A stretch of 64,000 bases of DNA. Origin: a virus. Below the pieces are notes generated by a model. The model had not been told where the DNA came from and ran no database searches. It saw only the letters and a program-made list of their open reading frames with translations. Location of the stretch: the IMG/VR virus record IMGVR_UViG_3300010399_000031, positions 1-64,000 of that record; one strand, 5' to 3'. This document shows positions 3,776-61,759 of this stretch, piece by piece. The position numbers and the translations under genes were made by a program. Position 1 is the first letter of the stretch, and every line of letters begins with the position of its first letter.

Positions 3776-5239
3776 ATGGAACATCTCATGCCCGGCTTTG
3801 TCCGGATCCCGCTGCACAAAGCCATGATCAATATTGGGGCTGGCTTTGACATCGCTACCGGAACTTTCCTGGAAGGCAAGTATGGTGAAATGATTCTGAA
3901 CGGGGGAGTGGCGAATATCACCGGTATCGCAGGGCCGGGTAACAGCTTTAAGTCAACGCTGATGGATTGGATGCTCTTTACCGCGATGATTCGCATCTGT
4001 GAAGAGTCCACCGGCAGCAAGTATGACACGGAAATGAACGTACACGAATGGCGCCTGAAGATGGTCTGCGCCATGATTCAACACTGGTTGAGTCTGGATG
4101 ACCAGCCGGACGTATTCGATCAGGGTCGCTTTATCATCACCGACAAAACCAAACACACGGGTGATGAATGGTACGAAATTCTTCGCGAGTATCTCACCGA
4201 GACGAAGAAAAAAGCACTCAAGCAATTGATGCGCAATACGCCTTTCCAAGAGCGCGACGGCAGCCTGATGCAAATTCCGGTACCCACGTTCACCGGGGTC
4301 GATTCGTTCTCACAGTTCATCTCGGCCAATGCAATGAAGATCCAGGAAGAAAATCGCATTGGCACGTCCGACACGAACATGTTGAACATGAATCAGGGAC
4401 GCGCCAAAGCGCAGTTCTTGATGGATATTCCGGCGCTGGCGCAGGCTGTGTACAACTACGTGTTTCTTACGGTACATATCGGGGAAGAGTATCAACTCGA
4501 TCCGCGCAATCCGAAGCAAAAGAAGTTGCAGTATCTGAAGCAAGGTCAGAAGATCAAGGGTGCGCCGGAAGGTTTTCTATTTCTCACCAATAATTGCTGG
4601 CTCTCGTCAAGCGCCAGTTTACTTCAAGCTGACGACGGTAATGGTCCGCAGTATCCGCGTGATTCGGACGACAAGCTCAAGAAAGACACCGATCTGAACG
4701 AGGTGACAGTGACGTTGTTGCGGGGTAAGTCAGGTCAATCGGGGTTGCCTTGGCAAGTGGTGGTTTCGCAATCCGAAGGGGTACAACCTTCCTTGACTGA
4801 ATTTCACTACATGCGTGGGGTGAAAGAGTCGGGCGATAAGCGTTGGGGGTTCGAAGGTAATCTTCAGAACTACGCACTCGATTTGCTGCCGAGTGTGCGT
4901 CTGTCGCGCACCACGATCCGTAACAAGATCGATGAAGACGCGCAGCTGCGGCGCGCACTTAATATCTCGTCCGAGATTTGCCAGATGAACGCGCTTTGGC
5001 ACAACATGGACCAGTACATTGTCACCCCTGCTGAATTGTACACCAAACTTAAGGAAAAGGGCTACGACTGGAACACACTGCTCAATACACGGGGTTGGTG
5101 GACCATCGATAACGAGAGCCCCAAACACGCTCAGCCGTTTCTCTCCAGCATGGACTTGTTACGGATGGTCAAGGACGAGTATCACCCATATTTCTTGGAA
5201 ACGGATAAGAAGACCTTGAAAAAGGAATACCAGAAATGA
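3776..5239 (+). CDS. RecA/DnaB-superfamily ATPase
   Basis: Residues 53-61 read GPGNSFKST, a P-loop of the kind seen in phage RecA/UvsX/Sak4-like and DnaB-like ATPases, where the usual glycine before lysine is replaced by Phe. Upstream residues (GGVANITGIAG) form the beta strand leading into the loop. Later strands such as YNYVFLTVHIGEEYQ resemble the sensor/Walker B strand of that fold. At 487 aa it is longer than bacterial RecA and carries a helical C-terminal extension. Likely role is recombination or replication on phage DNA; whether it is a strand-exchange protein or a helicase is not decided by sequence. It overlaps the next small gene by ATGA. Confidence 0.65.
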   Translation: MEHLMPGFVRIPLHKAMINIGAGFDIATGTFLEGKYGEMILNGGVANITGIAGPGNSFKSTLMDWMLFTAMIRICEESTGSKYDTEMNVHEWRLKMVCAMIQHWLSLDDQPDVFDQGRFIITDKTKHTGDEWYEILREYLTETKKKALKQLMRNTPFQERDGSLMQIPVPTFTGVDSFSQFISANAMKIQEENRIGTSDTNMLNMNQGRAKAQFLMDIPALAQAVYNYVFLTVHIGEEYQLDPRNPKQKKLQYLKQGQKIKGAPEGFLFLTNNCWLSSSASLLQADDGNGPQYPRDSDDKLKKDTDLNEVTVTLLRGKSGQSGLPWQVVVSQSEGVQPSLTEFHYMRGVKESGDKRWGFEGNLQNYALDLLPSVRLSRTTIRNKIDEDAQLRRALNISSEICQMNALWHNMDQYIVTPAELYTKLKEKGYDWNTLLNTRGWWTIDNESPKHAQPFLSSMDLLRMVKDEYHPYFLETDKKTLKKEYQK

Positions 5240-5394
5240 AACGACTGCTCTGGGCTTTGTCTGCCTATGCACTTGGAGACAAAGCCTGGCATTATCACGC
5301 TACGGGAGATGCGCTACTGTTGACGATTTTTTTTATCGCTACAGTTTGCGCCATTCAGCAAATATTTGTAAGATACCCGTGGCAACGTGCTTGA
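5236..5394 (+). CDS. Small membrane protein, 52 aa
   Basis: The start overlaps the stop of the RecA-like gene in an ATGA, which suggests translational coupling. The product starts MKRLLWALSAYALGDKAW and has a second hydrophobic stretch (LLLTIFFIATVCAI), so one or two membrane passes are likely. Function unknown. Confidence 0.55.
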   Translation: MKRLLWALSAYALGDKAWHYHATGDALLLTIFFIATVCAIQQIFVRYPWQRA

Positions 5395-5457
5395 TACGGC
5401 GCTAAAGTAATTTGATATGGGAGGTTGTCTCCCGGTTCTTTAGAGGGATTTTTCACA

Positions 5458-5847
5458 ATGGAAGCACCAACCACCGTTGCGGAACAACCAACCAAGGAAG
5501 TTCCCCTACACAAAGCCGCCGAGCACGCACTGGCGAATGCTGGTCACCCCGACCCGGCATTCTGGCATGTGTTCTTACACCCGCATGCACTCGATGAGAA
5601 GTTGGATTTCGATGTGCGGCGATTTCTCATCAACCGTGCATTCGAGATGTCGATCGGCGGGCTCGACCCGCATGCGGTTTTCAGTGAGAAAGTCGCGCAA
5701 GATTACGCGCGCGATCAACTCGACGCCCGCTACTGTCTGCTGCCCAAGGGTGACCAAAAGACGTGGCTGCACTCGTTTCAGCAGCAAGTCGTCCCCTTCA
5801 TCATGAAGTACCAGTTGGGTGTGTCACGCCAAGTGCAAGCCGCGTGA
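5458..5847 (+). CDS. Hypothetical protein, 129 aa
   Basis: The start at 5458 (MEAPTTVAEQ) is chosen because GAGGGA lies just upstream; a longer reading from 5425 would run through a small GGGAG/CTCCC hairpin (5419-5433). The acidic N-terminus is followed by a compact helical region with many His and Asp residues. No family recognised. It sits in a plus-strand run of unknown genes after the RecA-like ATPase. Confidence 0.6.
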   Translation: MEAPTTVAEQPTKEVPLHKAAEHALANAGHPDPAFWHVFLHPHALDEKLDFDVRRFLINRAFEMSIGGLDPHAVFSEKVAQDYARDQLDARYCLLPKGDQKTWLHSFQQQVVPFIMKYQLGVSRQVQAA

Positions 5848-5922
5848 AGCCGCATCGGAGGGTGGGATAATTATGCAGACAGTTTAGCAAGATTGTCCCA
5901 CACCCTATGCGGGAGAAAAGTC

Positions 5923-6594
5923 ATGAAAGGTGATCGTAAAGCAGCTACCGCCGAGCTGCTCGCGGGATTGGAAGCCATACTTCCTGGTAGTGAAAATACC
6001 GCGCTCTACAAGGCGAAGTTGGAGTCGATGTCCGATTCCGAATTCGAAGACTGGATCAAAGCGCTGGGGCAAGGCACGCAGCAAATTGCAGTATTTGTGC
6101 CCAATTTCTCCAAGCATCAAATTGACGTCAATCGGAACTTTGACGTGGCCGCTAAATGGGGTCACGATTATTTCCAACGCATCTGGATGATGGGTCCGGA
6201 TGGCTCGTACTACTTGACGCCCAAGAAATATCTGGTCTACGATCTCCCTCTTCGTCGACAGGCACAACACCTGATCAAGAAGATCTCCATTCCCGAGGAT
6301 AACAAATCCGTTGATGATTTGACGGGTCAACCCACGGGTAAATCCAAAGGCAGCAAAGTTTCTTATCCCGAACTACAGGTGTTAGCCGCACTCGGGTTAG
6401 ACCACTCCATTATGGAGATGCTTAAGATTCGTGGCGGTGATACCAAGGCGTTTAACGCTTCGAACACCATCATCGCGAAAACCGGTTCGGTCAGTCAAAA
6501 GGAGATTGAACCGTATGCGGGGGGTGTGGAGTCGACCAAGACACTCGGGATCATACTGACCGCGATGCACCTTTCTAATTCGATTGAAGGATAA
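5923..6594 (+). CDS. Hypothetical protein, 223 aa
   Basis: The start at 5923 follows GGGAGAAAAGTC; an upstream in-frame codon at 5893 lacks such a site. The N-terminal third contains FVPNFSKHQIDVNRNF and a basic, Tyr-rich segment (WMMGPDGSYYLTPKKYLVYD). A Lys/Ser-rich linker (GQPTGKSKGSK) leads to a C-terminal helical domain. I do not recognise the family. It is spaced 3 nt from the next gene, so the two are probably made together. Confidence 0.65.
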   Translation: MKGDRKAATAELLAGLEAILPGSENTALYKAKLESMSDSEFEDWIKALGQGTQQIAVFVPNFSKHQIDVNRNFDVAAKWGHDYFQRIWMMGPDGSYYLTPKKYLVYDLPLRRQAQHLIKKISIPEDNKSVDDLTGQPTGKSKGSKVSYPELQVLAALGLDHSIMEMLKIRGGDTKAFNASNTIIAKTGSVSQKEIEPYAGGVESTKTLGIILTAMHLSNSIEG

Positions 6595-21562: not shown

Positions 21563-23194
21563 ATGAGCGCGAAACTCGATATCCCGTTCAATTTGACACT
21601 CTTGCAACTGACTCCGGCTAAGCTGCACCTGATGCGGCCGGTGAAAGTGCTTGACAGTTTCGATGGTACGGGCAGCAATTTTCATCCCGATGGGTTGTTC
21701 AGTACCGAGATTTTTGGCCGGGTCGGAGACGAGCTGCGTTCGCGCCGCTTTTCCTACATCGACATCAAGATCTCGATTTTCCACCCGATCATTTATCGCG
21801 CACTGGCGGATTTGAAACAGCTGTACATGGGCATTATCGCTGGCACTGAATATGCCGTGTTCGATGATGAGGAAAAGGACTTCGCTCGGTCGGACTCAGT
21901 GCATGGGAAAACGGGGTTTCAGTTCTTTGTCTCCAACTGGAAACGTATCGAGTGGAAGGACACCAAATCGGTATCACGTGAACACAACATCAAGCTTATT
22001 CAGATGTATCAGGATAAGTGCATGATTGACCATGTGGTGGTCTTGCCCGCTGGTTTGCGCGATATGGAGATTTTGGCAGACGGTCGCCCGCAGGAAGACG
22101 AAGTCAATTCGCTCTATCGGCGACTACTGATGGTGGCCAATACGATCAGCGACGCTTCGATTGCGCATAACCCTGAGGTGATCAACAATACGCGCTTCAC
22201 ACTTCAAAAGAGCTTCAATCAGATTTACTCGACCTACGAGGAGATGATTGCGGGTCGCCGTAAGTTGATTCAAAACCGTTGGGTCTCGCGCCGTATCTTT
22301 AACGGCACGCGAAATGTGATTACCGCAGCGGACACGGCAGTTGCGTACCTAGGTGCACCAGGTGGTATGAGTATCAACGATACGGGTGTTGGCTTGTATC
22401 AGACACTTAAGATGCTGCTACCGGTATCGAAGTATTTGCTGCGCACAAGCTTTCTATCCACGGTTTTTGTAGCAGCCGATCAACCGGCGCAATTGGTGAA
22501 CAAAAAGACTCTCAAAGCTGAACCGGTAACCCTCAAACCGACAATGTACGATCGCTGGATGACCGATGAAGGGCTTGAAAAAGTCATCGCAGCTTTTGCC
22601 CATGAGGACAATCGCCACAAACACTTGGAGTTAGAGAACCACTATCTGGGTCTGATTTACAAGGGACCCGATGGCACATTTCGTTTGATGCACGATATCG
22701 ATGAAGTGCCGCAAGGGCGCGAGAAGAAAGACGTTCACCCCCTCACCTTTTGTGAGTTGCTGTACTGCTCAACGTATTTTGCGCTCAATAAATATCCAGT
22801 CTTTGTGACGCGTTACCCGGTCACAGGAATTGGCTCGATCTATCCGTCGATGGTTTTCTGTCAGACGACGATCAAATACGAAAAGCGCCACGAGTTATCC
22901 CTCAACTGGGATCCGATGGGTGAGGAGCGTACCGCTTATCAATTTCCCATCACAGGAAGCGCATTTGTCAACACATTGATTCCTCATCCAGCTAAACTCG
23001 TGGGTCTGGGTGCTGACTTTGATGGAGATACGTGTTCAGGTAACTCGATCTACACGAAAGAAGCGGTCGATGAAGTACATCGCTTTTTACAGACCGTGCG
23101 CGCTTATGTCAACACCAATGGCGAGTTTATGGCCTCCACCTCTACCGATACGGTAGAACTCGTCTTGCACAATTTCACTGGGGTTAAAGAATGA
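21563..23194 (+). CDS. Virion RNA polymerase beta' subunit, N-terminal fragment (phiKZ gp180-like)
   Basis: Residues 483-489 read GADFDGD, the Mg-binding catalytic signature of multisubunit RNA polymerase beta' subunits (D485, D487, D489 as the aspartate triad). The usual first residue Asn is Gly here. The N-terminal block GRVGDELRSRRFSYIDIK corresponds to the 'FGHIEL' region. The protein stops about 55 residues after the triad, so the C-terminal half of beta' must be a separate gene, as in phiKZ; no such gene is in this window. AAAGGA precedes the start. The stop overlaps the beta start as ATGA, implying coupled translation. Assignment to the virion rather than the non-virion enzyme rests on the neighbouring gp181-like gene. 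Confidence 0.9.
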   Translation: MSAKLDIPFNLTLLQLTPAKLHLMRPVKVLDSFDGTGSNFHPDGLFSTEIFGRVGDELRSRRFSYIDIKISIFHPIIYRALADLKQLYMGIIAGTEYAVFDDEEKDFARSDSVHGKTGFQFFVSNWKRIEWKDTKSVSREHNIKLIQMYQDKCMIDHVVVLPAGLRDMEILADGRPQEDEVNSLYRRLLMVANTISDASIAHNPEVINNTRFTLQKSFNQIYSTYEEMIAGRRKLIQNRWVSRRIFNGTRNVITAADTAVAYLGAPGGMSINDTGVGLYQTLKMLLPVSKYLLRTSFLSTVFVAADQPAQLVNKKTLKAEPVTLKPTMYDRWMTDEGLEKVIAAFAHEDNRHKHLELENHYLGLIYKGPDGTFRLMHDIDEVPQGREKKDVHPLTFCELLYCSTYFALNKYPVFVTRYPVTGIGSIYPSMVFCQTTIKYEKRHELSLNWDPMGEERTAYQFPITGSAFVNTLIPHPAKLVGLGADFDGDTCSGNSIYTKEAVDEVHRFLQTVRAYVNTNGEFMASTSTDTVELVLHNFTGVKE

Positions 23195-26100
23195 TTTATT
23201 ACGACCTCTTTTTCCGTAAGTTCGGCATTCGACGTGTCGATAAGTTGCTCTCTCCGCCGCTGGCCGCGACGCGTCTGATGGAGTTACCGCTGCTTTCGAT
23301 CTACCACTATCTGGGATCGAACACCGGGGTCGATGTGGCGCCTTCCTCGAACGAATACCTCTTTCGCAACATCACGCGCTCGATCGCCATTCAACACATC
23401 ACGGAGCCAGGGGCCCGTCTTGGCTTGCCGCAAAAGCACGTGGTGAGTTGGCCCCAGGTCATTCGTCACTACCAGTCGCGCAATCGTCGTTTTCAACAAA
23501 TCAGTAAGCTCGCGCAGTATGAAAACACACCGATGACATTGGTGGTGCAAAACTACGGATTTATTCCGTTGGGGTTAAAGTACCAGCGTAACGTGCTCAG
23601 TGCGTATTACCAATGGCATAATCAGCAAGCGGCATTGTGGGATCGAGTAGCAATGTTAGCTGGTGAGAGTGTGCGTAATCAGTTTGTTAAGTTTAACTTA
23701 CCGACAACATTGCCGTCGGTGGGCGACTTGCAACAAGCACAAGCGAAGATGAATGCCACCACCATTCATCATGTCTACGAACCCGATGCTTTTGTGATCT
23801 TGGAGCTGTGGAAGTGGTTGGGCGATTACCGCTCTGAGTCGCTGCTTGCACGAGTGCCGGAAGACAAACTCTCGAAAGTGAACATCATCTTCGAGGAGTC
23901 AGGCCGCTGGTTGATGCTTAACCTGGGTTTGCTCAATAGCTGGCGCAACACCCCGAAGGTGGAGTTGACCAAACTGGCTGAAGGACAAAACCCGAACCAC
24001 TCGGGTATCGATTCGCACCAGTTGCAACGTCGTTTTCTTGGGATGCTGATGCGGCTTTTCCAAGCGCGTTCGGTTTCGAATAAGGATCTCGGAGAAGACG
24101 TCGTCAATGAGGATAGCGACGGAAAAAAATCCGACGGTAGTGAAGAAGCTACACTGACCGCTCCGGTGTCTTCGCTACCAAAGGTCAACCCGGTAACCGG
24201 CAGCACAAGCACGGCGTTGGTCGACACGCAAGTGCGCACCAACCCGCTCGACATTCTCAACCCGAATCGGGATGAGCAGCAAACGCAGACACAGCTGCAT
24301 TTGAGCGTTGAGCAAGAGCGTCAACTCGAAGCGGATCTGTTGGAGCTGGATCGTATCAGTAAGGCGGTGATTCAGCGGCGCAAAGAGATGATGGAGTTCA
24401 TGGTCGAAAACGACGAAGAACCCCTATCTGCCACGCAAGGGATGCGTTTGGGTCAGACGCAAGTATCAAACCCGATACAAGCGCCGCGTAAGCTACCCGA
24501 GCTTAAACCAATCGATCCGAAACCAGAGGTAAGTGCAACCACCCATGATTACACCTCAGGGGTGCAAAAGCTTATCGATCGGCACGCTGAGCAAGGTATG
24601 CTCTCGGCTGCTGAAGTGCGGCGTTATCAGGAATTGGCACGCAAGCATGAATCGATCACGGCGCCCGATGGTAAGGGTAGCATGAAAGATTTCGTGGTGG
24701 TGCACCCGGAGGCGGTGAAGGTAGAGGCGAAAACCATCCCGGATAAGCCGTCGATTTTCGACAAGAGCATGCTTGCCTCGACGCTACACGAGTTCACCCC
24801 GAAGTATGTGGAAAACGTGTTGCAAAAAGACGTCGCGGCGATGGTGCTGAAGATTCAAGATGCTGGCTACTGCGTGACCGATTACGAAGTCGAACATGTG
24901 GAACAGATCACGGGTGATTACGACATGTACACCTGTCGCGTGACGCCGGTGGAGGGTTCCGCATCCACACTGCGCTGGAAACTGCCGTCGGTGCGAGCCG
25001 ATGGTGTGTTTGTTGCCAATAACGTACCTTACCGGATGCGCACGCAACGCGGGGACTTGCCGATTCGAAAGATCGAAACTTCCCGCGTGGGTCTGACCTC
25101 TTACTACGGGAAAGTGTTTGTCACCCGTAGTGAAAAGAAGGTGAACGACTACGGTGACTGGCTAAGGCGTAACATCATGGCGGCTGGCTTGGACCTGGAT
25201 AACCCGCACGTCAGTGCACTTCACCCAGCTAACGTGTTTGATCATCTCTTTCAAGCACCGCGCCTTTACAGCATCTGTGCCATGGGTTTTCGCGGCTTTA
25301 CGGTGAAACCTGGTGCTTGGCCTGAGAAGGTGAAGTTCAGTAGCCTGGAGTTTAACTTTGACCACACCAAGCGTGAGCAGCTTTACGGTAAAGACGTATT
25401 AGCGCGGGTGGAAAAAGAAGGGGCGTTGATGGTGGGAACCACCGATAAGCGCGATCCGATGATCATGACCGCCGATGGTGGGATCTCGGTGATCGCCGAT
25501 GGTAAGATGATCAATCTCGCCTCGTTCGATGAGTTGTGCGGTTTTGATCCGATGAAAGCGCCGGTCGATTTTGCGGTGGTCTCGGTCTTCGGTCAGAACA
25601 TCCCGCTGGGTGTGGTGCTTGCCTACGAGATGGGACTCTCGTCTTTGCTCAAACACCTTGGGGTAGAACCCAGACGTGTTCCGGCAGGTAAGCGGGTAGG
25701 ATTAACCGGTGAAGAGTACTCGATCGCGTTTGCCGATGAGACGCTTGTGTTTCGCAAGAAAGACAAGTTGCCTGCGATTATCTTGGCAGGCTTTAACGAG
25801 TACTGGAAAGCGGTCAAGCAGTATAGCGTCTACGAGTTCGATAAGCGTGGCGTGTACCTGAATGTGTTGGAAGCATCAGGCGTTGGTTCGCGTTACCTGC
25901 GAGAAATCGATTTACTCTATCAACTCTGGGTAGATCCGATTACCCGTGAGCTGTTGGTGGAGCTGCACGAACCCACTCAGTTCCAGGACATCTTGCTGCG
26001 TGCGGCGGAGTTACTCCTTACCGATACGCACCCGCGCACGCTTGACACCTCTTACCAACGTTTTAAGGGCTATGAGCGTTTTGCAGGGGCCGTTTATACG

Positions 26101-26520
26101 GAACTTGTCAACGCGATTCGTACGCACAATGGGCGTCCGGGTAAGAGCAAGCAGCCGCTCGATTTGAACCCGTTCGAAGTCTGGAAAGCGATCTCTGAAG
26201 ACCCATCGAAGTTGACGGTCAAGGATATCAACCCGATTGAGAACTTGAAACAACAGGAGTCTGTTACCTACTCAGGAACCGGTGGACGCAATTCACGGTC
26301 GATGACGAAAAACACCCGCGCGTACGATGAGAACGACATGGGGGTAATTTCTGAATCCACGGTGGACTCGTCCGATGTGGCGGTGAACACTTACATGAGT
26401 GCGAACCCGCAGTTTGTCTCTTTGCGTGGCTTGACCAAACGCTATGATCTGCACAAAACTGGCGCTACGTCTTTGCTCTCCACCTCGGCCTTGCTCTCCG
26501 TCGCCGCTGACAAAGATGAT
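23191..26520 (+). CDS. Virion RNA polymerase beta subunit, exon 1 (phiKZ gp178-like)
   Basis: This exon encodes 1110 residues. Residues about 600-640 read NNVPYRMRTQRGDLPIRK and then TSRVGLTSYYGKVFV, matching the beta-subunit region before the catalytic core. The first 280 residues are a phage-specific helical domain, and residues about 300-400 an acidic/Gln-rich linker. An in-frame TAA occurs immediately at 26521, the first base of a group I intron. After splicing the reading frame continues ...DKDD-VNISPKRV... at 27902, giving a beta of about 1498 aa. Without splicing only this N-terminal fragment is made. Neighbours are beta' (ATGA overlap) and structural genes. Confidence 0.88.
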
Positions 26521-27901
26521 TAAAGGAATGTTGTGAATAGCAATGAAATCTACTCTTCATCCTATGTTAATCGCTTTTGGGGTGAAGACGTATGGAAAAG
26601 ATCGAACCGGTTGAATCAATTGGTTTTCCAGGTTATTACGAAATTCCGGGGTTTAGTTTTCGATACGCAATTGATCGAGAAGGACGTGTAATTAACAAAT
26701 TGACTCGGAAAGTTCTTTCTGGAAGTGTCAATTCAAAAGGTTACTGCCATTATCGATTAATTGCTAACGATCTTCTGGTCTTAACGATCGGGAGACATAG
26801 GCTCCTGGCTTTCGTATTCAAACACCCTGGTGTTTCGTTAAAAGGTCTTGTGGTTAATCACCTGAACGGGATTCCAGGAGATGATCGTTTGAATAACTTG
26901 GAATGGACAACGCACAAAGGGAACATTGAACACGCAGGTATGTTGGGTCTTACGACCAAATGCATACCGGTATCTGTTCGAGACATCGATACGGGTGTCG
27001 TTATAAAGTTTCCGAGTATCGTTGAGTGTGCTCGTCATTTTGGGGTTACCAAAGATACGATCAATTGGCGTGTAAAAGTAGGTGAGGCGAAACTGTTTCC
27101 AGATCGGAAACAATATCGAACCACACGCGCTGATGATCCGTGGATTTCCCCCGGTAATATGGTGGATGAGAAAGTTGAGTTTGGAAGATCGAGATGCATC
27201 CTACTTCGGTACTTGGATAGCGAAACGGTTGTGGTGTTTCCTCAACTCCAACAATTGGCATCGCATCTCGGTGTCTCACCCGCAACCATCACACTCTGGC
27301 TTAACCAGCCCAATCAACCAGTACTCCCTGGTTGCATCCAGATAAAATTGGCAAGTGATCAGACTCCATGGAGAACGATTGCTGATCCTCGTCTGGAACT
27401 TGAAAACTATACGGGTAAAAAATCCGTCGTGGTGACCAAGACAGCAACCGGAGAATCTAAGATCTTTGATTCAGCTGTGGAATGTGCAAGAAGCATGGGA
27501 ATATTGCCAACCACCCTGAATCTCCGACTGAAATCGAAGGGAACAAAAACTTTCTCTGATGGTTTTAGTTATTGCTACTATTCAGATATTCCAAGGTCCT
27601 ACTCGACGGTAACGTTGAGATAGAATGCTCTCTAATTGCTGGAACCCCCTTAGAGCTGATTCACCAAAGCGAAGTGCGAAAGCACAGACGTTACGGTTGG
27701 AAAACGAATCAGATTGGGCAATCAGCAGCCAAGCCTCCCTGCGCAAGCGAGAGGAAGGTTCAACGACTAACCGCTTATCACGGTGTACCTGACCAAGTGG
27801 CAGGGAAATGGGAGCCGTCCTAAATGGACGAAGATATAGTCTGGACATTCAGGGAAATCCTGAAGCAGCACGTAATGGTGCGGCCTAGAATAACGACCTA
27901 G
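26521..27901 (+). mobile_element. Group I intron in the virion RNA polymerase beta gene
   Basis: Conserved core elements are readable: P (TAATTGCTGGAA, 27633-27644), Q (CAATCAGCAGCC, 27719-27730), R (GTTCAACGACTA, 27758-27769) and S (AAGATATAGTC, 27831-27841). The exon ends ATGAT and can pair with GTTGT at 26530-26534 across a 9-nt loop, placing the usual U.G pair at the 5' splice site. The intron's last base is G (27901). Removing 1381 nt joins beta exons in frame. The open reading frame for an HNH enzyme fills the 5' part, upstream of P3. This is a self-splicing intron by every motif I can check by eye. Confidence 0.92.
26592..27623 (+). CDS. Intron-encoded HNH homing endonuclease with NUMOD repeats
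   Basis: The N-terminal 60 residues look like a NUMOD4 DNA-binding module (GFPGYYEIPGFSFRYAIDRE). The HNH core is VVNHLNGIPGDDRLNNLEW with the flanking TTHKGNIEHA typical of phage homing enzymes. Three NUMOD1-like helix-turn-helix repeats follow (near FPSIVECARHFGVTKDTI, FPQLQQLASHLGVSPATI and FDSAVECARSMGILPTTL), an unusually long DNA-reading tail. The gene lies wholly inside the group I intron, ending 10 nt before core element P. It would cut intron-less alleles of the polymerase gene. Translation may depend on timing of splicing; the ribosome site is GGGGTGAAGACGT. Confidence 0.9.
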   Translation: MEKIEPVESIGFPGYYEIPGFSFRYAIDREGRVINKLTRKVLSGSVNSKGYCHYRLIANDLLVLTIGRHRLLAFVFKHPGVSLKGLVVNHLNGIPGDDRLNNLEWTTHKGNIEHAGMLGLTTKCIPVSVRDIDTGVVIKFPSIVECARHFGVTKDTINWRVKVGEAKLFPDRKQYRTTRADDPWISPGNMVDEKVEFGRSRCILLRYLDSETVVVFPQLQQLASHLGVSPATITLWLNQPNQPVLPGCIQIKLASDQTPWRTIADPRLELENYTGKKSVVVTKTATGESKIFDSAVECARSMGILPTTLNLRLKSKGTKTFSDGFSYCYYSDIPRSYSTVTLR

Positions 27902-29068
27902 GTGAACATCTCGCCCAAGCGTGTCAACTTCATCGCCATCCAGCACGGACACGGCGTTGCCTGTGCCGGCTACCACGCCAGCGCCGTTCGCACAGGCTAT
28001 GAGCAAGTCATTGCGCATCGCACAAGCGACCTCTATGCAACGACGGCGAAAAAACCTGGTAAGGTGATTTCACTCGATGAGCGGGGGATGATTGTCGAGT
28101 ACGATGACGGCAGCAAACAAGGCATTGAGTTGGGGCGACGCTTTGGTACGGCAGAAGGCTCAACCATCCCGCACGATGTGCGCGCTGCGGTTAAACCTGG
28201 GGCGAAGTTTAAAGTCGGGGATGTACTCGCTTACAACGAGGGGTTCTTTGAACCTGACTTTATCGACCCTTCTCAGGTGGTATGGAAGCCCGGTGTCACG
28301 GTCAAAGTGGCGCTCATGGAGAGCCCTCTGACGCTGGAGGACTCTTCCGCCATTAGTGCTCCGACAGCTAACCTTTTACGCACCAAAACGACTAAAGAAC
28401 GCGAGATTATCGTGAACTTTAAGCAGACGGTGCGGGAGATGGTGAAGGTCGGTCAAGCGGTCTCGTCCGAGGATATTTTATGCGTGATCGAAGACGAAAC
28501 CACGGCACGCAACGAACTCTTTGACAAAGAGTCGCTGGACACGCTACGCGTGCTTTCAGCGCAAACGCCTCAAGCCAAAGTCAATGGCATCGTGGAGCGC
28601 ATCGAGGTGTACTATCACGGTGAAAAAGAGGATATGTCGGATTCGTTGCGGCTACTGGCCAATGCATCAGATCGGGAGTTTGCAGCGCGTCACCGCTCAG
28701 TAGGACGCACGGTGATGACAGGTCAGGCGGGCGACAGCTACCGCAGCGATGGCGATCCGCTGCTACTGGACACTCTTGCAATCAAGATTTACATCACTGC
28801 CGAGGTCCCGGCCGGGGTGGGTGATAAGGGGGTGTTTGGTAACCAGATGAAGACGGTGTTCGGAACAGTGTTGGAGCACGAGGTGACGACCGAGTCGGGT
28901 GAGAAAATCGGTGCGATCTTTGGCGCGAAGAGTATTCAAGCGCGGATCGTACACTCTCCTGATCAGATCGGAACTACGACGACCAATCTGAACCTATTGG
29001 CCGCGCGCGTGGTGCGAACCTATCACCGACAGCCGCAACCTGCGCCGCTTAAGTCGCATAAAGACTGA
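27902..29068 (+). CDS. Virion RNA polymerase beta subunit, exon 2 (phiKZ gp149-like)
   Basis: This exon encodes 388 residues that continue beta after splicing. It begins VNISPKRVNFIAIQHG, matching the bacterial beta segment DVSPRQ...SLIPF, and contains AEVPAGVGDKGVFGNQ, equivalent to the KVGDKxxxxxGNKG motif with catalytic-site lysines. Residue numbering of that motif in the spliced protein is about 1412-1422. In phiKZ the matching C-terminal part (gp149) is a separate gene elsewhere; here it is continuous with the N-terminal part. The GTG at 27902 is an exon junction, not a demonstrated start. A terminator follows. Confidence 0.88.
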   Translation: MNISPKRVNFIAIQHGHGVACAGYHASAVRTGYEQVIAHRTSDLYATTAKKPGKVISLDERGMIVEYDDGSKQGIELGRRFGTAEGSTIPHDVRAAVKPGAKFKVGDVLAYNEGFFEPDFIDPSQVVWKPGVTVKVALMESPLTLEDSSAISAPTANLLRTKTTKEREIIVNFKQTVREMVKVGQAVSSEDILCVIEDETTARNELFDKESLDTLRVLSAQTPQAKVNGIVERIEVYYHGEKEDMSDSLRLLANASDREFAARHRSVGRTVMTGQAGDSYRSDGDPLLLDTLAIKIYITAEVPAGVGDKGVFGNQMKTVFGTVLEHEVTTESGEKIGAIFGAKSIQARIVHSPDQIGTTTTNLNLLAARVVRTYHRQPQPAPLKSHKD

Positions 29069-29084
29069 CCGCATCGCTCGGGTG

Positions 29085-29128
29085 ACGGGCAATCCTGTAA
29101 GGGGGTTGCCCGTACTCCTTATTTTTTA
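29085..29128 (+). terminator. Terminator after the RNA polymerase genes
   Basis: Arms ACGGGCAA (29085-29092) and TTGCCCGT (29106-29113) are followed by ACTCCTTATTTTTTA. It ends the polymerase transcription unit. Confidence 0.75.
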
Positions 29129-29151
29129 CCAATCCTGCAATAGGACTTTCC

Positions 29152-29352
29152 ATGAAAAACCGTGAATCCGAACGGACACTGGTGACGCTGGCGAACGCGG
29201 AAGAACTCGTGGCGCTCGTGACCAAGAATGTCGTGGGTGAAGAGGTGGCTGACATGTACGACGGCACTCCGCTCACGCTCGATGTGGTGCGTCGTCTGGC
29301 TTTGGTGAAATTCCAAGGTCAACTCTCGAACTTCATCCCTGTGGGGAACTGA
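29152..29352 (+). CDS. Small hypothetical protein, 66 aa
   Basis: A short gene between the polymerase terminator and a structural gene, ending 2 nt before the next start. AGGACTTTCC precedes the ATG. The product is charged and helical (LANAEELVALVTKNVVGEE) and could be a small assembly or chaperone factor for the gene it is coupled to, but nothing identifies it. Confidence 0.6.
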   Translation: MKNRESERTLVTLANAEELVALVTKNVVGEEVADMYDGTPLTLDVVRRLALVKFQGQLSNFIPVGN

Positions 29353-29354
29353 AC

Positions 29355-30827
29355 ATGTTGAGTCTTAACTCTTTGAACGCGGCCATCCCGCTTGCCGAAA
29401 TTATGGACCGCAGCAACCAGATGTTGCTGCCGGTGCCGGGTACGCCGCTCGAACAACTGGTGAATGCCACGCGCAGCAACACGCAGTTTGCACTCCCGGT
29501 GAACAACAAACAAGGGGAGTTCCAACCGAGCACTTACGACATCGAATACATCGCCAACAAGCGCAGTGAGGCAGGTGTATGCGAACATGACGTGGTGCAA
29601 GATGAAATCGTCGATATGGCGGCGCGCGCAGTGCGCGGGCATTTGGTGGTGATTCGTAATGCCGTGATTCCGGCAATCGTCGAGTTGCACGATAACGTGG
29701 CCAAAGCCATGAGTGCACTGCCGGTTTCGCGTATGCTAGGAATGGAGGTGAAGATCTACGATTTGCCGCAACCGCTAAAGTCACCGGCCATCGAAAATCT
29801 CATCTCCAAGTACGAAGGAGTGCCGCACGAGTCACCGGCGCTACGCATGAAGTGTCCGGACATCCAGATGGAGGATCTGTGCGCACTCATGAAAACGAGT
29901 GCGGGTGGTTTCGACAGTGAAGTCGATAAGTGGGTCGCCGTAGAGGGTGATTCGTTTTTCCTGCAACTGTGGGAAGACGTGTTCCAGACGAAGAACAATC
30001 ACTTCGATAAGTTCAGTCAAGCGATCGACGATCGCGAGCAAGGGATCAATCGCGCTTTGGCAATCTTTCTGATTGCTCGTAAGCTCTACGAAGATCCAGT
30101 TGAGGGGATCTCCATGTCCCTGCCCTCGTTCAAATCACTCGCGGCTCAATTTCGTGATCAAGCGGCGGCTAAGATTCGCCGAGCTTTGGGTGAGTGGGAA
30201 CTCGTCAAGCGTCGTCAGCTGCTCGTGAAGAAAGTCGACGACAAGTGCATCATCGTCAACGAAGTGGTCTACCGTCCGTGGATCATGGAAGGTAAGGGCG
30301 ACAATGACGTGCTCTTTGGTAACCTCGTGAAACAAACGGGGTACACGACGGTTGAGCAGTTGACGGAAAACGCGGGTGAGTTGAAAGCGACTTGGAATCG
30401 CACCGCAGCAGCTTCGGCCACAGGCGATCGCGCCGCGCGCTTTTTGCAACTCAAAGAGCTACTCTTCTCGGAGTTTCGTAAATCGATTCACGATTTAAAG
30501 GGTGACGTTGAAGGTCCCGACACGGCTGCTCAAGAGCGAGAGGATGTCCTTCTACGCTTTAAGACCGAGTTGGCAAAGCTGCGCGACACCGATGTGGAGT
30601 CGGTCGAACAGTTTTACCCGCTGTGCCTGAAGCTCGTGTGTCGCTCGCGTTTTTACAAGGTACCCGATGCGGAGAACTTCATCTGCCAGATGATGAAGAT
30701 CGAGAAGGATAACCCCGGCATCACCCCCCGCGAAGCTTCGACGATCGCCACAGTCGACTACATTGCCGGCTGGGTAGCTGAGATGTTCAAGGTTGTGGCC
30801 GTCGGTAGTGCTGCCGCCCGACGTTAA
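29355..30827 (+). CDS. Probable virion structural protein, 490 aa
   Basis: Position between the virion polymerase and the prohead protease matches phiKZ gp177/gp176, which are virion proteins. The product is soluble-looking with a conserved feel in the middle (MLGMEVKIYDLPQPLKSP) and helical C-terminal third. No enzymatic motif is seen. The start ATG follows GGGGAACTGAAC. It is followed after 12 nt by another gene with AAGGAGGCGAC, consistent with one late operon. Confidence 0.65.
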   Translation: MLSLNSLNAAIPLAEIMDRSNQMLLPVPGTPLEQLVNATRSNTQFALPVNNKQGEFQPSTYDIEYIANKRSEAGVCEHDVVQDEIVDMAARAVRGHLVVIRNAVIPAIVELHDNVAKAMSALPVSRMLGMEVKIYDLPQPLKSPAIENLISKYEGVPHESPALRMKCPDIQMEDLCALMKTSAGGFDSEVDKWVAVEGDSFFLQLWEDVFQTKNNHFDKFSQAIDDREQGINRALAIFLIARKLYEDPVEGISMSLPSFKSLAAQFRDQAAAKIRRALGEWELVKRRQLLVKKVDDKCIIVNEVVYRPWIMEGKGDNDVLFGNLVKQTGYTTVEQLTENAGELKATWNRTAAASATGDRAARFLQLKELLFSEFRKSIHDLKGDVEGPDTAAQEREDVLLRFKTELAKLRDTDVESVEQFYPLCLKLVCRSRFYKVPDAENFICQMMKIEKDNPGITPREASTIATVDYIAGWVAEMFKVVAVGSAAARR

Positions 30828-30839
30828 TAAGGAGGCGAC

Positions 30840-31565
30840 ATGGACCCGCGTAAATTGATTCATGACGCCGCCAAGGTTCAGTCGCATCTGAGAGAATTAC
30901 CCGATGAGCGACTGGTCGCCGTCAAACCGGTGAAGATTTACATCCCAAGCCGGTTTGCCGAGCGTAACCTCGCCACGATTGGTATCGAGACACGCATTTG
31001 TGGGATTGCGGGTGTAGTTGTGGAAGATCGCTACTACGGGCTTTTCCTCGTGAACGCCATGATGCAGATCGATCCGACCAGTACGCTCAAAGTCATGGTT
31101 GAGGAAGACGAGTATTACGAGTTCTCGTTTGATGCGGGAGCCACCGTCATGCCGACCACCCAGTTGGTGAAACAAGATACTCTGGTGTTTCGTATCTATG
31201 ACGAATTTATCGCCAAAGGACGGGTACCGTGGTACATGGGTTATGACGAGTTGGGTAAGCTCTTTGATACGGCGAAAACCTTCGCGGGGGCGAACATCGG
31301 TCAGAACCACGAAGTCACGGAGTTACTGGTTTCGATGATTGCGCGCGATCCGAGTGATCGTTCGAAGTATTATCGGCAGACCGTTAAGTCACGTGAAGAC
31401 CTCATCAAGCATCCCCCCGCGATTATTCCGTTGCGCAGTGTGCAGTACTCAGCGACCAATACGGTGAACAAGTTGGCCGGATCGTATTTCCAGGACGCTT
31501 TAACCTCAGCCTTAGTAAGCCCTGGCTCGCGCACTGAGCGAATTGAAAAACTACTCCGAACCTAA
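30840..31565 (+). CDS. Probable virion structural protein, 241 aa
   Basis: AAGGAGGCGAC precedes the ATG. The protein begins with a basic helix (MDPRKLIHDAAKVQSHLREL) and has a beta-rich middle (VKIYIPSRFAERNLATIGIE). The relative order before the prohead protease corresponds to phiKZ gp176. No motif gives a precise function. The stop is embedded in a nested inverted repeat and is followed by an inserted HNH gene. Confidence 0.65.
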   Translation: MDPRKLIHDAAKVQSHLRELPDERLVAVKPVKIYIPSRFAERNLATIGIETRICGIAGVVVEDRYYGLFLVNAMMQIDPTSTLKVMVEEDEYYEFSFDAGATVMPTTQLVKQDTLVFRIYDEFIAKGRVPWYMGYDELGKLFDTAKTFAGANIGQNHEVTELLVSMIARDPSDRSKYYRQTVKSREDLIKHPPAIIPLRSVQYSATNTVNKLAGSYFQDALTSALVSPGSRTERIEKLLRT

Positions 31566-31600
31566 TTGGTTACATATCACTCTAAAGTGATGCCAATTAG
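31562..31600. repeat. Nested inverted repeat upstream of the freestanding HNH gene
   Basis: Outer arms CTAATTGG (31562-31569) and CCAATTAG (31593-31600) enclose inner arms ATCACT (31576-31581) and AGTGAT (31586-31591) with loop CTAA. It overlaps the stop of the upstream gene and ends 12 nt before the HNH start. It may be a terminator, an RNA-processing site, or a structure that hides the HNH ribosome site. Confidence 0.6.
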
Positions 31601-31612
31601 TACGGAGTTTTC

Positions 31613-32380
31613 ATGGACCATGAAGAGAAGTTTTGTATCAGGTGCGGCGAATCGAAGCCGTTGGCTAGATTCGCCGTTCATCCTGGAAGTGGCAATCTAA
31701 GAAACGTTTGCAAAGATTGTCGAAATATATCTAACAGGGAAAGGTATAGAAATGGTGGTAGCACTTATCACGAGGAGTACCGTAAAAGAAACAAGAAAAA
31801 ATTGACGAAGTATTTCAGGGAATATGAAGAGAAAAATTACGACGGCAGAAGAAAGAAAAGAAAAGAGCGTTACCTTCTTGATAAAAGAACCGGGTTACCG
31901 CTTCATACTCGCCGGCGAAGAAGTCAACCAGGAAAACTTCACGCGAACGCTACCGTTAGAGATGCAATTTCATCCGGGGTTTTGATTCGCCCAGAATCGT
32001 GTTCAAATTGCCCGCGTAAAGACCACATTCACGGGCACCATGATTCCTATCTAAAGAAAGATCGGTTGAATGTTCGTTGGTTGTGCGCTAGATGTCATCG
32101 CGCATTTCATCTGAAATATCATCTTGTAGTTATTCTTTTGGATGAAGCTGAGGTTATCCACCCGTACACACCAGATGGCGTGTATATCGGTGTGTTTTCC
32201 CAAGCGATCCAGCATTATCCCGAAAGGAAGATTCCCGCTGAGTTAAATGATGTAGAAGTTAAGATTTATCAAAAGGTATTTCAGTACCTTGAACATTTAG
32301 GTGGAAACTTCACCAAGATGGAGTATGGAGAAATCGCGGGAGGTTTATTCGGGATCTCGGCGATTGCTCTTAAAGAATGA
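31613..32380 (+). CDS. Freestanding HNH endonuclease with two zinc-binding pairs
   Basis: A first Cys4 finger is near the N-terminus (CIRCGESK ... CKDCRN). A second Cys4 site frames the HNH core (CSNC ... HIHGHHDSYLKKDRLNVRWL ... CARC, then HRAFH). The centre is very Lys/Arg-rich. The gene is AT-richer and uses different codons from its neighbours, a sign of recent transfer. It lies between two virion genes, not inside one, so it is a freestanding homing endonuclease rather than an intron product. The C-terminal 70 residues resemble a helical DNA-binding domain. Confidence 0.85.
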   Translation: MDHEEKFCIRCGESKPLARFAVHPGSGNLRNVCKDCRNISNRERYRNGGSTYHEEYRKRNKKKLTKYFREYEEKNYDGRRKKRKERYLLDKRTGLPLHTRRRRSQPGKLHANATVRDAISSGVLIRPESCSNCPRKDHIHGHHDSYLKKDRLNVRWLCARCHRAFHLKYHLVVILLDEAEVIHPYTPDGVYIGVFSQAIQHYPERKIPAELNDVEVKIYQKVFQYLEHLGGNFTKMEYGEIAGGLFGISAIALKE

Positions 32381-32407
32381 CCAGCATTGTTGTCAAGGAC
32401 AAACACC

Positions 32408-33160
32408 ATGTCTGTTAATAGCGTGCGTTACTCTTGTACGTCCTTGCAAGGGACGAACAAGGCCGGGTTGCTCAAACCCGATGCCAACGGTTACCGACCG
32501 ATGGTGGTCGGGGCGTTGAATATGTTCAACTCAGCTGGTGAGTTTTACGACTACGAGCGAGCCAAAAGCTTGTTCGAAGGATCGAGCCAATTGCAGCGTC
32601 GCGTTCAGCGTGGAGTGCTGAAAGGCGAATACGGGCATCCAAAGTTCGAAGTTGGGATGCGGCCCGACCAATTTGCTCACCGAGTACTCACCATCGATGA
32701 GCGAAACATTTGCTGTCACTTTCGTGAGTTGTGGTTGGATTTTAACAACTTGAAGGACAAAGACGGCAAAGCAGTCGTGGGGATCATGGCCTGGGTCAAA
32801 CCGTCGGGGCCGTTTGGCGGGTATCTGAAGGACTCGCTGGAAAACCCTGACGAGAACGTGTGTTTTTCAATTCGTGCGTTCACCGACGATAAGTACGTTG
32901 CAGGGGTAAAGCAGCGTTACCTGAAGACGGTGGTCACGTTCGACTATGTCCTGGAGCCGGGCATGGCGGTGGCTGAGAAGTATAAGGCTCCGGCACTCGA
33001 ATCGTACGACGAGCAGATCATCACACGTGGTTCATTGGAGCTGGCGATGAAAGCCACGGCAGACGTCGCTATGGAATCGGCTTCGCTTGCAAGTGATCTC
33101 TTTCAAGTCATGGGGTGGCACCTGCCGAAAGGGATCACACCCATCTTCACCCGCTGGTAA
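32408..33160 (+). CDS. Prohead protease (phiKZ gp175-like)
   Basis: The start at 32408 (MSVNSVRYSC) is chosen over 32387 because AAGGACAAACACC precedes it. Residues near LKGEYGHPKF supply the catalytic His and VCFSIRAF the catalytic Ser, the arrangement of herpesvirus/T4-type prohead maturation proteases (S77/S78-like). The length of 250 aa fits. It would cleave scaffold, major capsid and inner-body proteins, as gp175 does in phiKZ, where it cuts after a Glu within SxE-type sites. Order after gp177/gp176-like genes supports the call. It ends at a GNRA-looped terminator. Confidence 0.82.
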   Translation: MSVNSVRYSCTSLQGTNKAGLLKPDANGYRPMVVGALNMFNSAGEFYDYERAKSLFEGSSQLQRRVQRGVLKGEYGHPKFEVGMRPDQFAHRVLTIDERNICCHFRELWLDFNNLKDKDGKAVVGIMAWVKPSGPFGGYLKDSLENPDENVCFSIRAFTDDKYVAGVKQRYLKTVVTFDYVLEPGMAVAEKYKAPALESYDEQIITRGSLELAMKATADVAMESASLASDLFQVMGWHLPKGITPIFTRW

Positions 33161-49979: not shown

Positions 49980-50474
49980 TCACTTACCGATTCGTCTCCA
50001 CCGAGACCATTGTTGCATTCGACTATCTAATCTTCGAATCAACTCTTCCATGTTCAATTGAAGAATTTGTGCAGCTTCGGTTAAAGTTTCATATCGACGA
50101 CCATTAATCGATACCGGTCGCTTCTGAGCAATTTTATCCAATGGGATTTTGATGTGATCCAAGTAGTTCACGCATTGAGGATTTTCTCTGTGTTCCTCGT
50201 ATAAATTCTTTTCTGCAACATAGGCGTCTGCTCGATCTTCTGTGATAAGGAATGTAAAATGAAATGAAGGATCGTCATCGTAAAGTTTTTGAAGCCACGC
50301 ATTGGGATGTCGGTGGCGTTTTAGACAACTTAGGTGCTGGTAACGCCGCCGAAGTATATCACCAGAACTCCCGATATAAAAATTACCACTTTTGACATGT
50401 GTCATCACGTACGCGGCGTTCAATTTTGGAACCCGACCTATCAGTTTCTTACTCGCCATTGTCCAAGCATCCAT
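49980..50474 (-). CDS. GIY-YIG homing-type endonuclease, 164 aa
   Basis: Residues 22-37 read YVMTHVKSGNFYIGSS, the GIY-YIG motif with the first Gly-Ile-Tyr as AYV. Arg43/44 (RRRYQH) and Glu88 (VAEKNLY) occupy the catalytic Arg and Glu positions. The C-terminal 60 residues look like a DNA-binding tail with a helix-turn-helix (YETLTEAAQILQLNMEELIR). The start at 50474 is set by GGAGGTAACA; an upstream TTG at 50486 is less likely. It is AT-rich relative to its neighbours and lies beside a hairpin-rich non-coding stretch, so it is probably a mobile gene. Confidence 0.88.
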   Translation of the reverse strand: MDAWTMASKKLIGRVPKLNAAYVMTHVKSGNFYIGSSGDILRRRYQHLSCLKRHRHPNAWLQKLYDDDPSFHFTFLITEDRADAYVAEKNLYEEHRENPQCVNYLDHIKIPLDKIAQKRPVSINGRRYETLTEAAQILQLNMEELIRRLDSRMQQWSRWRRIGK

Positions 50475-51036
50475 TGTTACCTCCAAATATATCTACACAA
50501 TCTTTGGAGTGTATTATTTTTCAAAATACTGTAACAATTGTAACAGCGCGCCCATCAGTATTCTTTTAAACCCAGTTCTCCCTCCGGGGGAAGCTACTCG
50601 CTTCCCCCGGACTATGTGTACTGTGTTTGGTGGTTTTCTCCTCTAGGAAATTCCTTTCCAAGGAGTTGATCTGAAAGAAATCTTCTTCAAAAAGAAAAAT
50701 CTCTTTAAAATCAATTACTTACAGAGGAGCTTAACGCTCCTCTGATTTAAGTTTCACTAATTTTTTTTATGACGTTCAGTCAATTTTAGGACCACCCCCC
50801 GAGCGAGCGATAGCAAAGCGAGCAGACGACTTTAATGAGAGAGCTATGCCCTCAATAAGAGGGCCTAGCGAGCGAATGACTCCTTCTTCTGAGCCGAGCT
50901 TTTAAGCTCGGCGATCTATTCTTTATAAAGAGAACGAGCCATGTGAGACTCACCCTTGTGGGGTGAGGATCAAATAAGGGACAGAACAAACCATTGCGCG
51001 AACTATGGCTTTCTGGTCTTTTTCAAGGAAATTACA
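50475..51036. other. Hairpin-rich non-coding stretch, 562 nt
   Basis: No gene is seen on either strand. At least five hairpins occur: TCCGGGGGAAGC/GCTTCCCCCGGA (50583-50611), CAGAGGAGC/GCTCCTCTG (50722-50744), GCCCTC/GAGGGC (50848-50864), GCCGAGC/GCTCGGC (50893-50912) and CTCACCC/GGGTGAG (50949-50967). Most have TTAA- or AATAA-like loops. AGCGAGCGA-type words repeat between them. It could be a processed non-coding RNA, decayed terminators of lost genes, or a replication or mobile-element end. Confidence 0.55.
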
Positions 51037-60757: not shown

Positions 60758-61759
60758 ATGACTCAGGAACTGAATACCCGTGGCAAAGTGCGCATCTACG
60801 CCTGCGGCGGCTGCGGCGTGAACATCGGTTCGATGTTGGAAAAATGGCGACCCGATCCTTCGCCGACGATTGCTCAACTAGACATCGCCTACATCGACAC
60901 CTCGCGCTCGAACCTCAAACACGTGAACGCGCCGGCCGATCGCATCTACCTGTTCGAAGGTTTGGACGGCTCGGGTCAGATTCGCAAGGAAAACGTCAAG
61001 GACATCTCGGTGAAAGTGGCCGACATTCTGGACACGTTCGAACCGCAAGACCTCGCGATCGTGCTGCACTCGGCCTGTGGCGGTTCGGGTTCAGTCATCG
61101 GCCCCTCGATCGTCTCGGCACTGCTCGAAGCGAAGAAAGCCGTGATCGTGCTCATGGTCGGTTCAGCCGACACGCGACTCGATGCGCTGAACACGATGAA
61201 TACCCTGAAATCGTACGACTCGATCGCCAAGATGCGGGGTCTACCGGTGGTGCTCTCGTACCAGCAAAACAGTCGTGAAAACAAACGCGAAGCGGTCGAC
61301 GAACAGATGGTTGGCACTGCCGTGTCGCTCGCGATTCTGTGGTCGGCGAACAATCGGGAACTGGATTCGAAGGATCTGTACAACTTCCTGAACTTCCACA
61401 TCCCGACCACGTTCGAGGCGCAGGTGGCACACCTCACCTTGCTGCAACCGGACGACACGCTCAGCGAAGACGTCGGTCAAGTCATCTCCGTGGCAACCCT
61501 CGCAAAACGTGGGCAAGACACGGCGCTCGACCCGGCCCCTGAAGTGCAGTATCGCGGCTTTCTCGCCGACGACGCCCCCGATCGACTGCTGGCGGCCATG
61601 CCGACGCATTTCTTCGTGACCGACGGCATCCTCGACGAAGTGAACATGATGCTCAAAACCACCCTCAAGCAACACGAGGTCCAACAACAATCGAGGACAA
61701 CCAAGGAGGGATTCCTCACCGATGCTGACAAGCCTACGCATTCTGGCTTGGTTCTTTAA
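60758..61759 (+). CDS. phuZ: PhuZ-type phage tubulin
   Basis: Forms GTP-driven filaments that centre the phage nucleus and carry capsids in phiKZ-like infections. The N-terminal nucleotide loop is ACGGCGVNIGSM; the tubulin signature is SACGGSGSVIGPSIVS, corresponding to LGGGSGSVLGP in Pseudomonas phage 201phi2-1 PhuZ. The following strand VIVLMVGSADTRLDALNTMN and GLPVVLSYQQNS also match. Length 333 aa is normal. AAGGAGTTTAAAGAA precedes the ATG and codon use is strongly C/G-biased. The C-terminal tail (TDADKPTHSGLVL) is less acidic than the DADDNVDED-type tail of the reference protein. Family assignment is firm. Confidence 0.93.
   Translation: MTQELNTRGKVRIYACGGCGVNIGSMLEKWRPDPSPTIAQLDIAYIDTSRSNLKHVNAPADRIYLFEGLDGSGQIRKENVKDISVKVADILDTFEPQDLAIVLHSACGGSGSVIGPSIVSALLEAKKAVIVLMVGSADTRLDALNTMNTLKSYDSIAKMRGLPVVLSYQQNSRENKREAVDEQMVGTAVSLAILWSANNRELDSKDLYNFLNFHIPTTFEAQVAHLTLLQPDDTLSEDVGQVISVATLAKRGQDTALDPAPEVQYRGFLADDAPDRLLAAMPTHFFVTDGILDEVNMMLKTTLKQHEVQQQSRTTKEGFLTDADKPTHSGLVL

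Follow-up and report, generated by a model that had tools for sequence, protein, structure and literature searches.

A putative mobile group I intron with an HNH endonuclease in the virion RNA polymerase beta gene of a predicted chimallivirus

Results and Discussion

The polymerase locus and its phage

The DNA analysed here (the window) comprises bases 1-64,000 of a virus record of 243,403 bases, and positions are those of the window unless stated otherwise. The region 21563-33160 corresponds to the phiKZ gp180-gp178-gp177-gp176-gp175 neighbourhood, which encodes subunits of RNA polymerase together with a conserved protein, a protein of the virion and the head maturation protease. The phiKZ gp180 homologue, a virion RNA polymerase subunit with the ADFDGD motif (21563-23194, plus strand, PHROG 2986), runs without interruption in the window. 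The adjacent essential gene for virion RNA polymerase beta, the phiKZ gp178 homologue, is divided into exon 1 (23191-26520), a group I intron of 1393 nt (26521-27913) and exon 2 (27914-29068), all on the plus strand; within the intron lies an open reading frame for an HNH homing endonuclease (26592-27623, plus strand). A free-standing endonuclease gene (31613-32380, PHROG 2340, with a zinc-ribbon-like start) is found between the gp176 and head-protease homologues, and a free-standing GIY-YIG endonuclease ORF is located at 49980-50486 on the minus strand.

Phage tubulin PhuZ, a marker of nucleus-forming jumbo phages, is encoded at 60758-61759 (plus strand; PHROG 4733, E 2.7e-81), and a homologue of ChmA, the phiKZ nuclear shell protein (26% identity, E 9.5e-25), is found at record positions 74030-75895. 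Since both homologues are present, the 243-kb phage can be assigned by gene content to the chimalliviruses.

Exons and intron boundaries

The host gene of the intron was recognised by the PHROG 3148 profile and by homology to phiKZ gp178, in agreement with the first-pass annotation, which had described an interrupted virion polymerase beta gene. Exon 1 contains 1110 codons, covers profile positions 1-1050 and ends in ...KDD (GATGAT), as also seen in the alignment with the FLC9, LucasX and phiKZ proteins. It is followed directly by an in-frame TAA (26521-26523), the first codon of the intron as that annotation had stated, so that unspliced RNA would yield the 1110-residue exon-1 product. Exon 2 begins with PKRVNF and covers profile positions 1051-1422, again in line with the homologues. 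The two profile halves thus join at 1050|1051 across the corrected intron, and splicing at the corrected sites gives a beta protein of 1494 amino acids with its frame restored; the earlier claim that intron removal restores the frame therefore holds with the 3' site given here.

The 3' junction had previously been placed at 27901, which is wrong by 12 nt, the splice site being after 27913. In uninterrupted homologues (FLC9, LucasX, phiKZ and many metagenomic contigs) the sequence is D-D-P/M/A-K-R with no intervening residues; translation of the window's exon-2 frame from 27902 gives VNIS-PKR where the relatives read DD|PKR, and the four residues VNIS must therefore belong to the intron. A 27901|27902 junction was ruled out on two counts: it adds VNIS, missing from every uninterrupted homologue, and it falls in the 3' arm of a covarying intron hairpin (27883-27903). 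The corrected boundaries rest on the Rfam match, the exon junction by homology, this terminal hairpin and the DNA match to PhiPA3. At the resulting junctions (GATGAT|TAA ... TCG|CCC) a U precedes the 5' splice site, the intron ends in G and the exons are in frame. At the DNA level the ribozyme shares 75% identity with that of PhiPA3, and the match ends precisely at the 3' end of the intron, 27913, where it abuts the PhiPA3 exon.

The ribozyme

In a covariance search, positions 27556-27865 on the plus strand scored 70.5 bits (gathering score 50, E 7e-16) with the Rfam model Intron_gpI (RF00028) over model positions 1-253, i.e. the whole model, confirming the group I assignment made earlier. The ribozyme core, spanning the P3-P9 region, is located at 27624-27882 (plus strand) by the Rfam match, the consensus structure and the core elements. 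The four core elements that had been reported were also recovered, with P-, Q-, R- and S-like sequences at 27634-27644, 27720-27730, 27758-27769 and 27831-27841, respectively. When ten related introns were aligned over the core, a consensus structure of 71 pairs was obtained in which 96.4% of cells are paired and 51 of the 71 pairs show compensatory change; none of 500 shuffles equalled it, and when the partners were shifted by one to three bases pairing fell to 35-43%. The structure was derived from the same ten-intron alignment on which it is scored, which favours it, and the margin is very large. The 3'-terminal intron hairpin (27883-27903, plus strand; arms 27883-27888 and 27898-27903) is paired in every sequence of the ten introns, with double changes in six of its seven pairs. 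The single-sequence fold of the ribozyme is more stable than shuffles (z -2.8) and is not the main evidence. A P1 helix of five pairs can be drawn between GAUGAU and GUUGU at intron position +10; a helix as good is found in about 6% of shuffles, so that the pairing falls short of significance.

The in-frame TAA at the end of exon 1, and a GTG at 27902 that opens the exon-2 frame, would also be expected of a dead intron, in which case beta would be broken or exons 1 and 2 would be made as two separate polypeptides without splicing. We consider this highly improbable in view of the intact ribozyme with its covarying helices, the perfect restoration of the frame and the intact enzyme ORF; moreover, the homologue in phage 201phi2-1 is annotated as one joined protein and was identified by mass spectrometry.

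The intron-encoded endonuclease

The intact ORF at 26592-27623 encodes 343 amino acids and is preceded by a possible ribosome-binding site, GGGGTG (26579-26584, plus strand), read in the sequence. The Pfam families HNH_3 and NUMOD1 pass their cut-offs over this ORF, and the HNH endonuclease previously noted inside the intron is thus upheld. The HNH core extends over about residues 17-117, and residues H69, H90, N102 and N111 are invariant across ten enzymes.

Three NUMOD1-like DNA-binding modules are predicted in the C-terminal part. Of the three repeats described in the first-pass annotation, one passes the Pfam cut-off (residues 125-158); repeats 2 and 3 stay below it and are recovered by self-alignment and in the predicted model. 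In the self-alignment, none of 1000 shuffles was as good as repeat pair 1-2 or 1-3 and one was as good as pair 2-3, and the predicted model has three strand-strand-helix-helix-strand units in this part of the protein. On these two lines of evidence the three repeats are real. I-HmuI of Bacillus phage SPO1 was the only match of the family profile against the PDB (E 7e-25), and it was likewise the sole significant match (1U3E) in a fold search with the predicted model (pLDDT 76, pTM 0.38, the placement of the domains being unsure). I-HmuI shares with the window enzyme the HNH catalytic core and a NUMOD-type DNA-binding module; it differs in gene and insertion site, and the window enzyme has three NUMOD1-like modules. 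The closest enzymes are gp101 of Serratia phage 2050HW (53% identity) and PhiPA3 gp210 (44%). A search of viral contigs with the endonuclease alone yielded three weak relatives and no close copy.

Comparison with known phage introns

In PhiPA3, gp210 is encoded in an intron directly after the same two Asp codons, and the enzyme nicks phiKZ gp178 at that place (PMC11620839). It lowers phiKZ output 3.7-fold in co-infection, and mutation of H82 abolished its activity (PMC11620839, Birkholz et al. 2024). The catalytic His82 aligns with His90 of the window enzyme. When the insertion site was aligned with PhiPA3 and phiKZ, the window intron was found at the same site as that of PhiPA3, directly after the conserved Asp-Asp of the gp178 homologue. 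The PhiPA3 gp211/gp210/gp209 locus is therefore like the window locus in host gene, codon after Asp-Asp, ribozyme (75% DNA identity), HNH enzyme (44%) and catalytic His. It is unlike it in that the window phage belongs to another lineage and that the window intron starts with an immediate in-frame stop. As the site, the ribozyme and the enzyme all match, the window intron can be placed by site, gene, ribozyme and enzyme in the already known PhiPA3 gp210 kind.

The same site is occupied in Serratia phage 2050HW (gp100/gp101/gp102), which has the closest enzyme found; its host polymerase gene is only about 41% identical to that of the window in exon 2, lower than the 53% of the enzymes, and the parts are annotated as separate genes. 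Group I introns also occupy this codon of the beta gene in 201phi2-1 (gp273/274), in HPP-Temi and in the contig L022; unlike the window intron, they are short (336-366 nt) and have no endonuclease.

Distribution among relatives

The nearest cultured relative by the beta exons is Burkholderia phage FLC9, which has no intron. The nearest relatives by polymerase, the contigs L015 and L016, were checked for an uninterrupted junction, and both are empty at the codon with nearly the same junction DNA. The L015 beta is 74% identical to that of the window over the whole spliced protein and 83% in exon 2. On a beta tree of 30 rows, presence or absence of an intron at this codon requires at least seven changes, all forced by starred branches, a count that is blind to gain versus loss. 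It appears from this that the intron has been gained and lost repeatedly at one codon. Endonuclease and ribozyme trees of ten rows are mostly unresolved, and no donor lineage can be named from them.

The near-identical metagenomic contigs L018 (with intron; region 4695-6000) and L020 (no intron) differ by intron presence. The 11.8 kb that they share contain 33 differences. The 109 nt immediately before the insertion hold six of these, and the first 6.7 kb on its downstream side hold none; five differences in the upstream tract were checked and all are synonymous. The tract matches what one-sided co-conversion in homing would leave, and a direction of intron gain is inferred. GATGAT precedes the intron in all seven single-intron alleles and is found at three of 16 empty sites (Fisher p 0.0005, uncorrected for relatedness), a bias that would fit either co-conversion or a pairing requirement. 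Because there are empty-site sister alleles, an incongruent distribution and a co-conversion-like tract, these data support horizontal homing at the virion polymerase codon.

A purely selfish homing intron, spreading in super-Mendelian fashion among close phage relatives with no competitive benefit to the carrier, stands in our judgement an even chance of being the right account. The patchy distribution, the empty sister alleles and the co-conversion-like tract need nothing beyond homing, and the short introns of 201phi2-1, HPP-Temi and L022 resemble copies that decayed after fixation; against this, a 3.7-fold drop in phiKZ output has been measured in co-infection for the PhiPA3 homologue at the same site (PMC11620839).

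Tandem introns and a micro-exon

In two contigs, L025 and L030, the apparent loss of the beta frame is explained by tandem introns with a micro-exon. Two Rfam-positive group I introns lie in tandem at the same spot (L030 5322-5999, L025 4492-5982), separated by an 11-nt micro-exon, CCAAAACGAGT (L030 5660-5670, L025 5609-5619). Joining GATGAT, CCAAAACGAGT and AAATTTT or CAATTTC gives DDPKRVNF, so that the micro-exon is exactly the missing coding sequence. The second-site intron occurs alone in L028, L029 and Klebsiella phage phiKp_32, its boundaries there having been read by eye. For phiNIT1, a small exon flanked by two phage introns has been reported (PMC11878797), and by that account a micro-exon of this kind is not unprecedented. 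L030 carries at least five group I introns in the virion polymerase genes of this one contig (746-1466, 5322-5947, 6891-7133). The Asp-Asp codon might be a long-running contest site of nucleus-forming phages, which cutter introns invade repeatedly across host genera and where, in L025 and L030, a second intron was stacked 11 nt on, having perhaps arisen under attack or serving to block rival enzymes; we offer this as speculation and think it rather unlikely.

Other introns in the window phage and phiKZ

In the window phage, the beta gene of the non-virion RNA polymerase holds a second group I intron, which scores 92 bits and has its own HNH ORF (L013 6898-8135, record about 88897-90134), at HGG(I/N)|KGV, the same site as in phiKZ gp71-73. 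The thymidylate synthase gene is apparently split by a weak group I match of 26 bits (L014 7581-9400, record about 155580-157400), and the ORF therein resembles GIY-YIG enzymes, reminiscent of T4 td; this is probably a third intron of the phage. In phiKZ, the gp179 HNH gene is within a group I intron that splits the gp180 catalytic motif at GAD|FDGD (L009 1657-3090), and gp180 as annotated does not include the exon-2 residues. Introns are present at a place similar to that of the phiKZ gp180 intron in Goslar and LucasX.

Proposed mechanism

We are confident that the element is a mobile group I intron, an orthologue of the PhiPA3 gp210 intron in site and kind, which would combine ribozyme splicing with HNH-mediated homing in, or damage to, co-infecting relatives. 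A ribozyme fold, exon junctions, an intact HNH active site, empty-site sisters and an incongruent distribution can all be read in the DNA. The transcribed intron would fold as a ribozyme and join GATGAT (ending at 26520) to CCCAAG (from 27914), giving the 1494-residue beta; in the predicted spliced RNA, GATGAT is joined to CCCAAGCGT. The 343-residue HNH enzyme would nick or cut this same site in co-infecting relatives whose beta genes have no intron, and repair off the intron-bearing genome would copy the intron in, which is homing. Between genomes too dissimilar for recombination, the cut would merely damage the competitor, as reported for PhiPA3 versus phiKZ. We infer in this way splicing in vivo, cutting and a fitness effect of the window intron.

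It had been proposed that the locus follows the same strategy as PhiPA3, a weapon between phages. A mobile HNH intron of the same site, ribozyme and enzyme kind is borne out; the weapon part is not called for, since ordinary homing explains all the sequence facts. The main maintained role of the enzyme may nevertheless be damage to the virion polymerase gene in those co-infecting relatives that are too divergent for recombination, a possibility that we entertain with some doubt. The site is shared with PhiPA3 gp210 and the enzyme is homologous to it, the PhuZ and ChmA homologues make the same nucleus-forming biology probable, and the junction DNA is conserved among related phages. The closest relative, however, is 84-91% identical within 150 nt of the insertion site, and with it homing rather than killing would be expected.

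Conclusions

The case for PhiPA3 gp210 as a weapon is based on one phage pair. In the present comparison the same codon is occupied in several lineages beside intron-less sisters, with a footprint consistent with recent homing, and the question of weapon versus selfish element becomes testable over many natural phage pairs. The analysis corrects the junction and provides concrete targets such as the L015 allele. It would also imply that distinct nucleus-forming phages swap DNA at the virion polymerase locus despite the phage nucleus.
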